Assembly: GCA_019828545.1 (NCBI GenBank)
Contig: JACVRA010000453.1
Location: 1 to 42,591, forward strand
DNA length: 42,591 bases
DNA from: Paracamarosporium sp. OC-R06-R3
Taxonomy: Eukaryota; Ascomycota; Dothideomycetes; Pleosporales; Didymosphaeriaceae
Direction: 5' to 3'
Program-made: the position numbers and the translations under genes
Notes under the pieces: generated by a model
What the model saw: the letters and a program-made list of their open reading frames with translations, nothing else
Databases searched by the model: none
Told to the model about the DNA's origin: nothing
Shown: positions 1-14,640 of the stretch, piece by piece
How the letters are laid out: each line of letters starts with the position of its first letter
Position numbering within the stretch: the stretch's first letter is position 1

Positions 1-86
1 CGAAGTGGCTCGGCACGCGCACAGACACGTTATCAAATCCAAACTTCTACCCGCGTACACAGTTCCGTAATCACAAAATAATTACC

Positions 87-1142
87 ATGCCACCACCAAG
101 ACCCAGGCCCTTACCAAAACCGACCAAAAAGGCTCCACCGAAACCGCAAAAAGGGAAAGCTTCTCCATCCGAGACTGCATCAACATCGACTTTGCCGTCC
201 GACCTGCAGCAACTCCTGCTTAACATCTTCAAGAATTCTTTTGCGGAGAGGCTCTCTTCAGACATCAAGCCGCTTCTGCAGGAAGTGAAAGGTCATCTTT
301 ACAATCGCGACTTTGCTGTCGCTTTCGGGAGAGAAGAGTACCTCGAGGCATATGCCCTGCGGTGGTCACCCAGTCGTGCGCTATGCTATCTGCAGATCTT
401 GCATGATCTGAAAGATGAGTTAAAGCTTCTTCAAGGTGTATCTAAAGAGACAGGGGATGCTGAGTGGAACGTTACCTGCCTGGGTGGAGGTGCAGGTGCC
501 GAAATCGTCGCTTTGGGTGGTCTAATGAAGCTATTAGGCCCGGTGGGCGAAGGGCACGGTGCTGGGCTTAAGACCACTGCAATCGATATCGCAGACTGGG
601 CGAAGGTCGTCGAAAAGCTGAGAGAAGGCGTCGTGAATAAGCCTCCGTTATCAAAATATGCGTCTGCGGCCGCACAGGAGGCGAATAAGGCGTTGACGGA
701 TCCAGCTTGCTTCAGCGTCGCGTTCCACCAGCATGATGTTTTGAATACGCCGTTGGAGACTTTATCTGAGCTTGTAAAGGGCGCGGATCTGGTCACGCTC
801 ATGTTCACGCTCAACGAACTGTACACCACCTCTGTGTCGCTCACGCAGAAATTCCTACTTGATCTCACCACAAACCTCGCACCAGGAGCGCATCTCCTCG
901 TCGTAGATAGCCCAGGTAGTTACTCAACCGTCAGCCTGAACGGAACAGAGAAAAAATACCCGATGCAGTGGTTGCTAGACCACACCTTGCTCGACACAGG
1001 CGCCAAAGCGCGTGACGAACCGAAATGGGAGAAGGTAAAAGAGGAGGAGAGCAAATGGTTCAGATTAGACGAAGGGCTCCGGTATCCTATCGAACTGGAG
1101 AACATGCGGTACCAGCTGCACTTGTATCTCAGGCTAGGATAA
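87..1142 (+). CDS. BMT6: 25S rRNA (uridine-N3) methyltransferase, Bmt6 family
   Basis: Single-exon gene of 351 residues. The family member in yeast, Bmt6, is a SAM-dependent enzyme that makes an N3-methyluridine in 25S rRNA in the nucleolus. The N-terminus (1-35) is basic and proline-rich, typical of a nucleolar or RNA-binding tail. A glycine-rich SAM-binding motif, CLGGGAGAEI, lies at 131-140. It is followed by an acidic strand with DIADW and by the family motif with FTLNELY. The C-terminal block has a WFRLDEGLRYP-like stretch and ends in YLRLG. The start is the first ATG of the frame, just after an A-rich leader (AATTACC before ATG). Length and motif order fit the fungal family and I see no break. 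Membership in the Bmt6-like family is fairly sure; the exact target base is inferred from the yeast protein. Confidence 0.85.
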   Translation: MPPPRPRPLPKPTKKAPPKPQKGKASPSETASTSTLPSDLQQLLLNIFKNSFAERLSSDIKPLLQEVKGHLYNRDFAVAFGREEYLEAYALRWSPSRALCYLQILHDLKDELKLLQGVSKETGDAEWNVTCLGGGAGAEIVALGGLMKLLGPVGEGHGAGLKTTAIDIADWAKVVEKLREGVVNKPPLSKYASAAAQEANKALTDPACFSVAFHQHDVLNTPLETLSELVKGADLVTLMFTLNELYTTSVSLTQKFLLDLTTNLAPGAHLLVVDSPGSYSTVSLNGTEKKYPMQWLLDHTLLDTGAKARDEPKWEKVKEEESKWFRLDEGLRYPIELENMRYQLHLYLRLG

Positions 1143-9386: not shown

Positions 9387-12300
9387 TTACATGCTGGCGT
9401 TTGCGCAGCTTTCATCGCGCTCAGCGTCTGGAACGCGCTCACGGTTCCGAAGGTTCCAGATTCTTTTCGGAAGTGTTAATATTTTGAAAAAGTCTGGCTT
9501 CTCGGACGTCTCTGGCTTTTCGGGCGTGTCTTGCTTCTTAAACATGTCTATGTTGAATGCAATCAGAACGAGCGGCAGTGTAATAGCTGCAGAGATCGAG
9601 ACTATGGTAATACATAAGTATCACGATTGAAACGAGGCAAAGCTTGTATTCTTACACATAAACTTCGAGACATAGCCTAAGCTAAGACGATCCTGTTGGC
9701 TGCGAGGAAATTCCGCAATGTCAATGGCAAAGAAGGCAGCCATAAACGACAGAGGCAGCTTTGGGGAGTTAGATTACAAACTCTGGTTATGGACGAAGAT
9801 AGACTTACAAATACAATTGTAACGATAGTGAAAACCATCAACGTATCCCCTTGTTTCTGTGCAGCCTTTGTTAATGCAAGTGATTGCTCTGCTTGCTTGA
9901 TGGACTGCGCTGCCTGCTCGCTCGCAGACTGAGCATCTATCAAATTGGTTTGTTTTTGCTTAAAGTCTACGAGGAAGTCAACCTAAGAAAATTAGCCATC
10001 TCTCTTGTATGAAAGTTCCGAATTTGCCTACGGCCTGATGAGCTTTCTCAGCACGTTGAGCCATCTTATCGATTCGATCCATGCTCAGCTGAACGGCATA
10101 AATCGGAAGACTTGTCCCCCTCAGATCGCCGCCAATATGCCAAACCTCGCTCACTGAGTGAGTGTCCTCGACTGTTTTCGGGTCTTGTGTCATAGTCTCA
10201 ATACTTGCCCGACTCGACATGCTCTCCTCACCTTCACTCTGCTCGTCGTCGGCATTTGATCGGGCTGCACTAGCAACCACAGTGGCTCTCGGTTTCCGAT
10301 GAACTGACCGGATAATCCTATCCATGGTCGTTAGAACCTGTTTCTGGTCCTTGTATAGCTCCGACATGATATTGAGTTCGTCCTGAATGTCCTTGATCTC
10401 GTGGAGTAGTTTCATTTCTTGGCCGATCTTCAGTTCCTTCATTACATCCTGTTGGTCTCTTTTCATCGCTTTACGGAAGTCGTCGAAGAGTTTCGTTTCT
10501 TGGTTAACCTGCGCAAAGCCTAATTACTAATAGAAGCAGGAGAAGAAATCAACAGTACTAACCACATCGCTTATAGAGATCTCATAGATCTCTGGGAACT
10601 GTAGCATTTCTTCGGTGCTGATACTATCAAGATATGATCCAGAGCAGTTACTCGCGATAACACCGGCTAGGTCGTAGGCTGTTTTGACGTAAGACGGATT
10701 GTCTTCTACATATGCCAAGATACGCTTGAACATATCGGTTATCCCCTCAGGATCCGGATCTTTTTCGGAAGCTTCTTTTTCGAGAGCTTGTCGTTCGGGG
10801 AAACACGTTATAATTGTGTCAGCTCGACCATCAGTTCCGACTAGTACCCATAGCCATAGTTGGTCAACCATCGTGATCACGCTTGCTTTGTTTTCGCAAT
10901 ACTTTTTCCTATAGCGGCTCAAAACCTGGCGCTTATCCCGTTTATTGGTATCTTCGAGTGAGTGATAGTAATACTGATCCAAAGTGCGGCGGACGTGCAA
11001 TGGGTGGTCATCATTCAAGTAGTGGTAGGGGAAATTCTGTGTCACATCTTCGCTTTTCGTCTCGTCTTCTTCGGGGCGCTTCGTTATCTTGAGTTGTTGT
11101 TTCTCTCTAAGTTCCATTTTCTTGAGTTTTTGCTCTTGTTTAAGAAGCTTCGCTATTTTGAGTTGTCGCGCCTCCACCTCCCAATGAAGGTATGGCATCT
11201 GGGCATCGAATGAGACGAGACTAAAATGCATTGAAGATTTAACTCTTACAAATAGAACCAATTCCTTATCGCAGCTAAACAGTTCTGCTCCCTGATCGCC
11301 GTCGCTCGTTGAAGCTAGAAATGCGATCAGCTTAATTAGAGTCCAGGTGTTAACCCATGACACAGAGTTTTTCTAAATAAGAGAACTCACAGTTAACCCT
11401 TGAGATATTTTGACAGAGTGACCGCATATATCGAGCGTGATGGGCATCTCGAGCTGGACCCAGACCGTGGAGCTGCCGCGCAGCCCAACGATGTGGCCTT
11501 AGAATATCAGGCTGTCCCGGAAATTTGTATAGCTTATGCATAAGTACCTAAGTAAATGACACTTTAGTTCTCGCACATGTAAGGGGTATTAAGGTACTTA
11601 ATACCTCCACCCATCTCATCTGGCCAGTTTTAATTTGGATATAATCTTTAAAGGTTAAGCAAGTCACTTACATTGTTTGCTGGAAGGTGTATCCATCTGA
11701 AGCGATGTTCCTGTTGAGCCTTTGGTGTTCCTGTCTGCTTCAGGAATTTCTTTACCGAAATAAATTCTCTACGCCATGGCTTTATACTCCCAGATTCTGA
11801 GACGAAGTCCACCACTTTTGCCTTGAAAACATCATCATCGTCTTTGTATTGCCAGTCGGAACCTGCCAAGGTACCGCCAATAACCGCTCTTGCTAACATA
11901 TCGTGAATCTTGTGACCCTCCCGATTCTCAGGAATCGCCTTGAGTAATTCATCCGACAACGTTGGCTTTGCATTTCCAAATATCAATGTCTGCACAACAT
12001 CTGAATGTCTCTTCTGTACCGCATAATACAGCGGTGTATACTGGTTTCTGTCTTTCGAATTTGGATCAGCAGATTCCTTGAGTAACAGCTTGACTACAGC
12101 CGCATGCCCATGCCCTGAAGCCCATGACAGCGGTGTTCGGCCTCCTTTGTCAGTAAAATCTAGGTGAACATTCCGGTTTTCGAGCAACAGCCTGACCACC
12201 GCCGTATGCCCATTCCCTGAAGCCCATGACAACGGTGTTCGGCCTCCTTTGTCAGGAGAATTTGGGCGAACATTTTGGTTTTCGAGCAGTAGCTTGACCA

Positions 12301-13510
12301 CCGCTGCATGCCCATTCCCTGAAGCCCATGACAACGGTGTTCGGCCTCCTTTGTCAGGAGAATTTGTGCGATCATTTTGATTTTCGAGCAGCAGCTTGAC
12401 TACAGCCTCTTGTCCGTCCATTACAGCTAGCGACAGCAGCGTTCGGCCTTCATCATCCTTGTCGCTCAAAGGAGAGTCGACAAAAGCGCCAGAGTTATCC
12501 GTAACGAGGATCTGGTAACATTTTCCCATCAAGGCTTGCATTGTCTCATCGCGTAGATAACCCGTTACCCGCTCCTTCTCTTTACCGAGCTGAGCTTGGA
12601 CCCATTTCACGTATTCCGGCTTGCCATTCTTGTCTAAGAACTGCTTTGACTCTGTTCCGTAATGTTGAGCGGTTGCCTCTAGGAAGCGGTCCTCGAAGTA
12701 CTCTCTATAGATGCCAAGGGACTCGAACGAGTCGATGACAGATTTGAGGCAAGGTTGGTTGACATTCTGGCCATCTCGATGCCTTTCAATGTGCGCAAGG
12801 ATTGTGTCGATGACACGCTCGATAAGACTCCTCCGATCACCTTGATCTTCTCCGTCGTCTTGGTCGTCTCGGTTATCAGTGAACATGAACCCCTTCCACT
12901 GCTCCATGTGAAGCGTATAGATTTCATAGCCAACCCTTAGACGACCCTCAGTTATCTCCCATTGTATATAATGTCGGTTTAGATATCTGAGAATATCATT
13001 GTTTTTCTGAGAGGCGACTAAGTATCGACTCCATTCTTCGACGTAAGATGTGATGAGAACCTCGTCTTTGAGGTCTGCCAACAATCCCTGCACGTAGTTC
13101 AGGCGTTCATTCAGGTAGTCGACGAGATAACGGTAGAGGTCTTTAGCGGGCCCAAATTTAGCGGGCCCAAAGGAGTGCATGGCGCTTTTCTGCTTTGTGC
13201 AATACCTAAAGACAGCTGAGTAAAGTCTTATATCTGTCCCGGGACCTATATCGTTGGCCATGATTTTATCGAGGTCATCCTTGATTTCTCCCAGTCTGTG
13301 GGAAGTAAGTTTAAGATCCGAGGTTACTTATGCACTTCATATAGGTCTAAGTTAAGAAAATAGATTAGTCCCATATGGAGACTGGCAGTACAGCGTGACG
13401 CTTCCACAAGCATTGCGGTCTAGAAGGGCCAAGGTCATAGCAAAATCAATACAATGAGAAAGATGGACTGACGTTTCTCGAGCTTCTTCTTTGGATAATA
13501 TGGCCGCCAT
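9387..13510 (-). CDS. cullin N-domain / ankyrin / CorA-like membrane fusion protein
   Basis: Nine exons on the minus strand: 13510-13473, 13295-11672, 11619-11605, 11547-11391, 11314-10563, 10508-10032, 9982-9809, 9758-9656 and 9601-9387. They total 3555 nt and 1184 residues, with every phase consistent. Residues ~14-285 match the N-terminal repeats of CUL1-type cullins: LYSAVFRYCT, then EEWSRY, ILRYLNRHYIQWEITEG, YEIYTLHMEQWK, DGQNVNQPCLKSVIDSFESL and TESKQFL. About five ankyrin repeats follow (~292-458). From ~540 comes the fungal CorA-like module: FRWIHLPANN (545-554), HARYM (596-600), MPYLHWE (651-657), RRTLDQYYY (~720), DQLWLW (762-767), a long helical segment, and two membrane segments near 1069-1092 and 1112-1130. 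The helix end reads FFAIDI where CorA proteins have GMN. Cullin, ankyrin and HLPANN lie in one uninterrupted exon, so this is not an artefact of joining. The RBX1-binding and neddylation half of cullin is absent. Function unknown. Confidence 0.88.
12109..12414 (-). repeat. three 102-bp tandem ankyrin-coding repeats
   Basis: Copies begin at about 12109, 12211 and 12313, exactly 102 bp (34 codons, one ankyrin repeat) apart. They share long identical blocks such as GAAGCCCATGACA and GTTCGGCCTCCTTTGTCAG. Ankyrin repeats usually diverge at DNA level, so near identity points to recent expansion or gene conversion. Confidence 0.85.
13142..13171. repeat. perfect 15-bp tandem duplication in the cullin-coding exon
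   Basis: The unit TTTAGCGGGCCCAAA occurs twice without a gap. On the coding strand it makes the repeated peptide FGPAK-FGPAK just before the DLYRYL helix. In CUL1 this place is a flexible loop, so the duplication should be tolerated. Confidence 0.9.
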
Positions 13511-14145: not shown

Positions 14146-14640
14146 TGCATATGCAAGCTGCGAAGAGCTCTTTTATCCTAGCACATGAATACATTTCAGG
14201 CGATCACTCACCACACCACTCGCTTGTACGATGGAATAGATTGGCTTAGGTTGAATCACGAAACTCGATCCGTTTTCAGCCTTACCACCTTCTATCTCTA
14301 CCACTGCATGTTGTCCCGGGAGGGTGGCATGGTATACTTGAAGATTGGCCTCATGAGCCGAACACTGGTGACTAATACTAAAGAACTATAGTTCACTGTA
14401 TATGTAAACTGCGAAGAAAGCTCTGTATCCTAACACATTGATGCACTTGATATGGCCGCTTACCATGCCACCTGCGTGTAAGACGGAATAGATTAGTTTC
14501 GGCTAAATAGAGGAACTCAATCCATTCCCGGCCTTACCACCTTCCATCTCTACCTATGGCTGACGCGATGTTATATCAGTCACGTGTTAGCTCATCCAAT
14601 GAGAAGCTTCACTGCTGCATGTTGTCCCGAGAAGAGGGAT
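14146..14640. repeat. diverged tandem duplication
   Basis: Copy A (14146-14302) and copy B (14397-14554) align over about 157 bp at a 251-bp offset. Examples are GCTGCGAAGAGCTC against ACTGCGAAGAAAGCTC, GGAATAGATTGG against GGAATAGATTAG, and CCTTACCACCTTC in both. A following block, GCATGTTGTCCCG, is at about 14307 in A and about 14616 in B, where B has roughly 55 extra bases before it. Many differences are C/T or G/A transitions. Confidence 0.6.

Follow-up and report, generated by a model that had tools for sequence, protein, structure and literature searches.

A predicted fungal protein joining the N-terminal half of CUL1 to ankyrin repeats and a CorA-like membrane tail

The fusion gene

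A 42,591-nucleotide stretch of the genome of the ascomycete Paracamarosporium sp. OC-R06-R3 (contig JACVRA010000453.1, referred to below as the window) contains on its minus strand a gene, at 9387..13510, whose predicted product begins as a cullin, continues as ankyrin repeats and ends as a CorA-like membrane protein. Translation starts with the ATG at 13510, the stop codon ends at 9387 and the product has 1167 amino acids (aa). These coordinates and this order of domains had been proposed in an original prediction made from the DNA, and both are borne out by the gene model and by a Pfam search with the full predicted protein, which gives cullin, ankyrin and CorA in that order. The nine exons proposed earlier become ten, including a micro-exon of 15 bp, and all nine introns of the predicted splice model are GT-AG. 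All parts of the gene described below lie on the minus strand.

Exon 1 (13473..13510) encodes MAAILSKEEARE plus two bases and is homologous to exon 1 of CUL1, as judged by the position and phase of the first intron. Exon 2 (11672..13295, junctions from the gene model) is a 558-aa stop-free stretch that encodes the cullin part and the ankyrin repeats in one open frame. The two Pfam stretches are separated by 11 residues, both within this exon, so that no splicing choice can part the cullin from the ankyrins; the direct passage from one to the other that had been described is thus confirmed, and a separate cullin gene adjoining an ankyrin-CorA gene is ruled out.

Origin of the cullin half

The cullin N-terminal domain (PF00888; aa 16–288, 12470..13288) comprises cullin repeats 1 and 2 and the start of repeat 3, and matches positions 3–250 of the 620 in the profile with E 1e-42. 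The lack of a significant cullin match in residues 1–290 had been named beforehand as grounds for abandoning the original prediction, and this match disposes of that concern. When the cullin piece was compared by sequence with solved structures, CUL1 ranked first (1ldk_A, E 2.5e-25), in agreement with the CUL1-type N-terminus proposed. As had also been claimed, the catalytic half is gone: the match stops at profile position 250 and ankyrin and CorA sequence follows in place of the RBX1-binding C-terminal cullin homology region, and the neddylation domain PF10557 is not listed in the protein by Pfam at E up to 10.

The host genome (43.1 Mb, 337 contigs) was scanned with the cullin profile, in which the same stretch scored 146.9 bits. 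Eight matches were obtained, corresponding to three cullin genes (one in four pieces), the fusion locus and a match at C88, confined to the C-terminal part, that we take to be APC2-like. The nearest cullin is the CUL1-type gene at C3, with an identity of about 41–43% (43% over 258 aa, E 6e-42). The other listed cullin loci matched at E 0.2 or worse, which rules out an origin from a cullin other than CUL1. Both genes share the aligned position and the phase of their first intron, RA(T)|W in the fusion and RE(T)|L in CUL1. It follows that the N-terminal half was derived from a genomic copy of CUL1, and a retrocopy is ruled out by the retained intron.

The two have since diverged. The host's own CUL1 matches ascomycete CUL1s at 63–66%, and in a tree the terminal branch of the fusion cullin is 4.16 against a median of 0.4. 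The tree gives it no supported position; grouping with the host CUL1 is not rejected (approximately unbiased test, p-AU 0.479). Over 283 codons the fusion cullin and CUL1 differ at 120 first, 93 second and 168 third positions, and the fusion protein keeps 62 of 100 columns that are invariant in a set of 14 CUL1s (the host's own, P0001, P0124–P0129 and P0132–P0137, among them three from fish, P0132 from an aphelid and P0136 from a worm). With third positions differing most and this share of invariant columns kept, the cullin half has not drifted freely through its whole history, although the codon signal does not date the constraint because the CUL1 partner contributes to it. One local change is a perfect 15-bp tandem duplication (13142..13171) giving FGPAK twice, which in the alignment occupies the loop where CUL1 has GGAHLLG. 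Judged by its similarity and its first intron, the cullin half is a copy of the genomic CUL1 that has changed fast since.

The ankyrin repeats and the CorA-like tail

The ankyrin repeats (about aa 300–451, 11981..12436) match Ank_2 best at aa 300–391 (E 2.2e-57) and Ank_4 best at aa 402–451. They include a tandem unit of 102 bp, found by Tandem Repeats Finder at 12080–12407 in 3.2 copies with 88% DNA matches. For the repeats of fungal NOD-like receptors (NLRs), a protein identity of over 85% across at least 100 aa has been used as a criterion, and positive selection acts on their ANK repeats, some of which have high internal identity (PMC4986451).

The tail (about aa 490–1114, 9549..11866, the 5' edge being approximate) was modelled on a relative and is predicted to adopt a whole CorA fold, with a cytosolic funnel, a stalk helix and two membrane helices, at aa 1052–1070 and 1096–1114. 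The CorA family PF01544 is matched at aa 1037–1104 (E 3.6e-6), exactly at the 27-bit cut-off. The CorA-like end with two membrane helices described earlier is therefore upheld, with the qualification that the GMN pore motif is absent and AID stands in its place. GMN was found in none of the 113 relatives that could be read (the remaining 7 of 120 were not matched by the pattern), and an active Mg2+ channel is ruled out by the absence of the motif.

Relatives of this part were searched for by scoring the 7987 candidates that shared most words; the best 120 of 653 matches were listed. The top-scoring one, P0004, is 46% identical over 53% of aa 530–1120, and the named relatives are fungal. The micro-exon (11605..11619, MRWVE) completes the family motif PANNMxWVE, restoring PANNM-WVE, and an identical or near-identical motif occurs in P0004, P0005, P0008 and P0015. 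With ankyrin repeats followed by a CorA-type tail, the fusion protein belongs to this family, termed Ank-CorA here. The N-terminal parts vary within the family and the nearest relatives carry N-termini other than cullin; no clean alignment of ankyrin and cullin relatives was obtained across the whole of exon 2.

Two further Ank-CorA-type genes were seen in the same genome (L039 1732–5946 and L040 3784–5445), the former with a weak Hydrolase_4 match ahead of the ankyrins (E 2.3e-4, below cut-off) and the latter similar by eye. Seven of the best 120 of 653 relatives (P0012, P0020, P0024, P0026, P0033, P0044 and P0049) contain PF22893, and several of these bear ubiquitin-like names, which would add a second connection between Ank-CorA proteins and ubiquitin-type domains.

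The surroundings of the gene were analysed with Pfam. Ten open frames (window 3–1139 and 6940–42140) belong to housekeeping-type families: methyltransferase, ribonucleotide reductase small chain, protein kinase, S9 peptidase, ARM-repeat protein, RPC4, glutaminase A, EBP2, thioredoxin-type and MFS. A 129-bp direct repeat lies just upstream of the gene (14174–14302 and 14426–14554; 73% identity, 252 bp from start to start). Scans of the window for tRNAs and Rfam families gave no matches.

The presumed Skp1-binding face

Cullins 1–5 bind their receptors through cullin repeat 1 (PMC9507964). A list of CUL1–Skp1 contacts was looked for in the available text of PMC3616122, PMC9507964 and PMC5462531 and none was found there, and for this reason the adaptor stretches used here, aa 34–51 and 103–130, are our own choice. 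Within them the fusion protein keeps 13 of 21 CUL1-conserved columns, against 49 of 79 elsewhere. Each of the 14 CUL1s, when compared with the others, keeps at least 80% of its adaptor columns (lowest 16/20). Two cullins that we took as CUL4-type, P0002 and P0003 (only the latter being so named), keep 7/18 each, and over all columns 45/93 and 46/90, below the 62/100 of the fusion protein.

The helices that were said to contact Skp1 fare unequally. In helix 5 the YLNRH core is kept, although an invariant Arg (aa 125) is replaced by Trp. In helix 2 only 4 of 8 CUL1-conserved columns remain, with a conserved Tyr, presumably Tyr42 in human numbering, changed to Asp and an Asn to Arg. The claim is thus weakened, by helix 2 and by the adaptor stretches as a whole, which are kept no better than the rest. 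By these column counts the presumed Skp1 face has been conserved neither more nor less than the remainder of the domain. They count against a simple, well-kept competitor of Skp1–cullin–F-box (SCF) ligases, and Skp1 binding is neither proven nor excluded by them.

Other proteins with the CUL1 half

Long proteins that carry a CUL1 N-terminal domain were searched for, and of the 14 matches 12 are full cullins with a neddylation domain listed. The two others, P0130 and P0131, have none listed. P0130, from a metagenome (1012 aa, 3 members, 4 contigs), has a SesA domain at aa 13–132, a cullin match at aa 185–491 and no Pfam match in its C-terminal region; SesA is one of the domains that fungal NLRs can have at the N-terminus (PMC9815663). 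It keeps 90/100 CUL1-invariant columns and 19/21 adaptor columns, and the former suggests that it is a better candidate for Skp1 binding than the fusion protein. P0131, from [Neocosmospora] mangrovei (1905 aa), has NACHT-type families, WD40 repeats and a cullin match at its C-terminal end (aa 1547–1847). The cullin matches of the fusion protein, P0130 and P0131 end at profile positions 250, 284 and 311 of 620, respectively. Going by these domain matches, two further fungal proteins of receptor type, one SesA-cullin and one NACHT-WD40-cullin (the latter possibly a merged model), carry the CUL1 N-terminal half without the catalytic half, which is a new observation.

A single clade of the three cullins is weakly rejected (p-AU 0.024, with long branches in play). 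On the strength of this comparison, the same half of CUL1 is read as having been captured repeatedly by receptor-type proteins, two of which may share one origin.

Interpretation

Three functions had been put forward: keeping Skp1/F-box proteins at a membrane, competing with SCF ligases, and acting as a bait for something that attacks SCF. The bait gains most, because P0130 and P0131, both of receptor type, also carry the CUL1 N-terminal half. The reading tentatively favoured here, at a probability of roughly 0.4, is that the fusion protein is a membrane-anchored receptor whose cullin part serves as a bait, or integrated decoy, that attracts SCF-directed proteins, whether foreign or regulatory. 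It is favoured because the putative integrated decoys of fungal NLRs, such as those with a CHK-2-like kinase, provide a precedent for a membrane-displayed CUL1 bait, and because the high internal identity of ANK repeats in fungal NLRs may have a counterpart in the 102-bp unit. The sequence shows a copy of CUL1 with its first intron, cut after the start of repeat 3 and joined in frame to Ank-CorA-type sequence. As the tail is predicted to take the CorA fold, the protein would, by analogy with CorA, be a pentamer with cytosolic N-terminal parts, in which several cullin arms are held at one membrane. It would not ubiquitinate, since the RBX1-binding and neddylation parts are absent, so that a factor able to seize or modify CUL1 would attach to the false cullin in its place, and the resulting change might be passed via the ankyrin repeats to the membrane part.

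Several points weigh against this reading. The fast branch of the fusion cullin fits decay as well. The protein searches gave no cullin-Ank-CorA orthologue (3 matches; the best 120 of 653; the 14 long CUL1-type matches), and neither NACHT nor NB-ARC is listed by Pfam in the fusion protein at E up to 10, which means that it is not an NLR. The locus is surrounded by housekeeping-type genes and not by a receptor cluster. P0131 lacks the helix-2 segment and may be two genes merged by annotation. Common origins of pairs are not rejected (fusion cullin and P0130, p-AU 0.159; P0130 and P0131, p-AU 0.196), so that repeated capture rests on one post hoc test. Finally, no function for the Ank-CorA family was found in the open-licence literature, and no agent directed against SCF in fungi came to light.

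The main rival is that the protein is a natural dominant-negative CUL1, which would bind Skp1 and F-box proteins at the membrane and so lower SCF activity locally or keep F-box proteins in reserve. Its anatomy is that of an engineered dominant-negative Cul1 without the C-terminus, which takes up Skp1 and substrate receptors in competition with Cul1 (PMC3020946); the receptor-binding repeat 1 (PMC9507964) is present, the cullin fold is predicted to be intact and the YLNRH core survives. The altered residues of helices 2 and 5, and adaptor columns well short of the level seen in CUL1s, nevertheless speak against it, and we hold it to be rather unlikely. Alternatively, the cullin repeats might be a recycled scaffold, an extra helical binding surface or spacer with no remaining link to SCF. 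The long branch, a count of invariant columns lying between those of CUL4-type cullins and CUL1s, and the variable N-termini of the family would suit this, but generic scaffolding would not lead one to expect that three receptor-type architectures contain the same half of CUL1, or that P0130 keeps 90/100 columns, and we consider this reading unlikely.

The very long branch, the missing orthologue and the different N-termini of the nearest Ank-CorA relatives would also be expected of an accidental join in a single lineage, unexpressed or unselected and on its way out. Against this, the frame stays open for 1167 codons across ten exons joined at consensus splice sites, in spite of several changes of length relative to CUL1, and third codon positions differ most; we regard this reading as improbable. 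That neighbouring genes or an assembly join have been read as one gene is hardly credible: the gene model was predicted from sequence alone, and public annotations do contain merges or extensions (P0127, P0128 and P0129 are full CUL1s with long N-terminal extensions), but here the cullin and ankyrin parts share an uninterrupted exon and a CUL1-type first intron leads into it.

The decoy reading can be widened, in a form that we hold to be somewhat doubtful: fungi would time and again have placed copies of the adaptor-binding CUL1 half on receptor-type proteins, and the fusion protein would be the membrane form, a CorA-fold pentamer whose cytosolic false CUL1 arms catch and report SCF hijackers, a natural dominant-negative cullin turned immune sensor. 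If the decoy reading is true, the gene encodes a natural SCF decoy or antagonist, integrated decoys are not confined to NLRs but also occur in the Ank-CorA proteins, a family common in fungi, and, together with the SesA-cullin and NACHT-WD40-cullin proteins, SCF is indicated as a target of fungal parasites.

Comparison with known systems

No cullin-ankyrin-CorA protein was found described in the open-licence literature, as judged by titles and the starts of abstracts, in keeping with the novelty claimed for this order of domains. The word 'cullin' is absent from the available main text of PMC12258605 and from the available parts of PMC4986451 and PMC12881547, and in those of PMC9815663 it occurs only as an author's name; in PMC5819176 the sole match is 'culling'. 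Integrated domains as such are already known; for an Ank-CorA protein bearing half of CUL1, no description was found in that literature.

With the host CUL1 (G000:C3) the fusion protein shares cullin repeats 1 and 2, the position and phase of the first intron and the predicted fold, but it lacks the RBX1-binding and neddylation parts and its helix-2 residues are changed. With the fungal proteins annotated as 'ankyrin repeat protein/Mg2+ and Co2+ transporter CorA' it shares the ankyrins, a WIHLPANN-type motif and the GMN-less CorA-fold tail, whereas a cullin occurs in none of the best 120 of 653 relatives. P0130 likewise has the CUL1 N-terminal half without the catalytic half in a receptor-type protein, but with SesA in front, no ankyrin or CorA and better-kept adaptor stretches. 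P0131 shares the same half, but its cullin is C-terminal, lacks the helix-2 segment and may belong to a merged gene model.

The label 'cullin-repeat' in wheat may cover Exo70-type domains, which are not cullins. Under that label, a cullin-repeat-like domain on an immune receptor is shared with wheat, a plant, where it is among the integrated domains of NLRs (PMC7422411). Another comparison is with the fungal NLRs of Sordariales with a CHK-2-like kinase, proposed as putative integrated decoys (PMC12258605), in which a domain of a core gene has likewise been copied onto a receptor-type protein. The fusion shows this trait, a domain copied from CUL1 (by the shared intron) onto an Ank-CorA host with a putative receptor role; it differs in copying CUL1, in carrying the copy at the N-terminus and not the C-terminus, and in lacking a nucleotide-binding domain. 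With the engineered dominant-negative Cul1 it has in common that only the N-terminal part is present; the engineered form, made in the laboratory, is soluble and displaces Skp1 from Cul1 (PMC3020946). Truncated CUL1 has so far been a laboratory tool for blocking SCF; the fusion gene appears to be a similar cut made by evolution and placed at a membrane.
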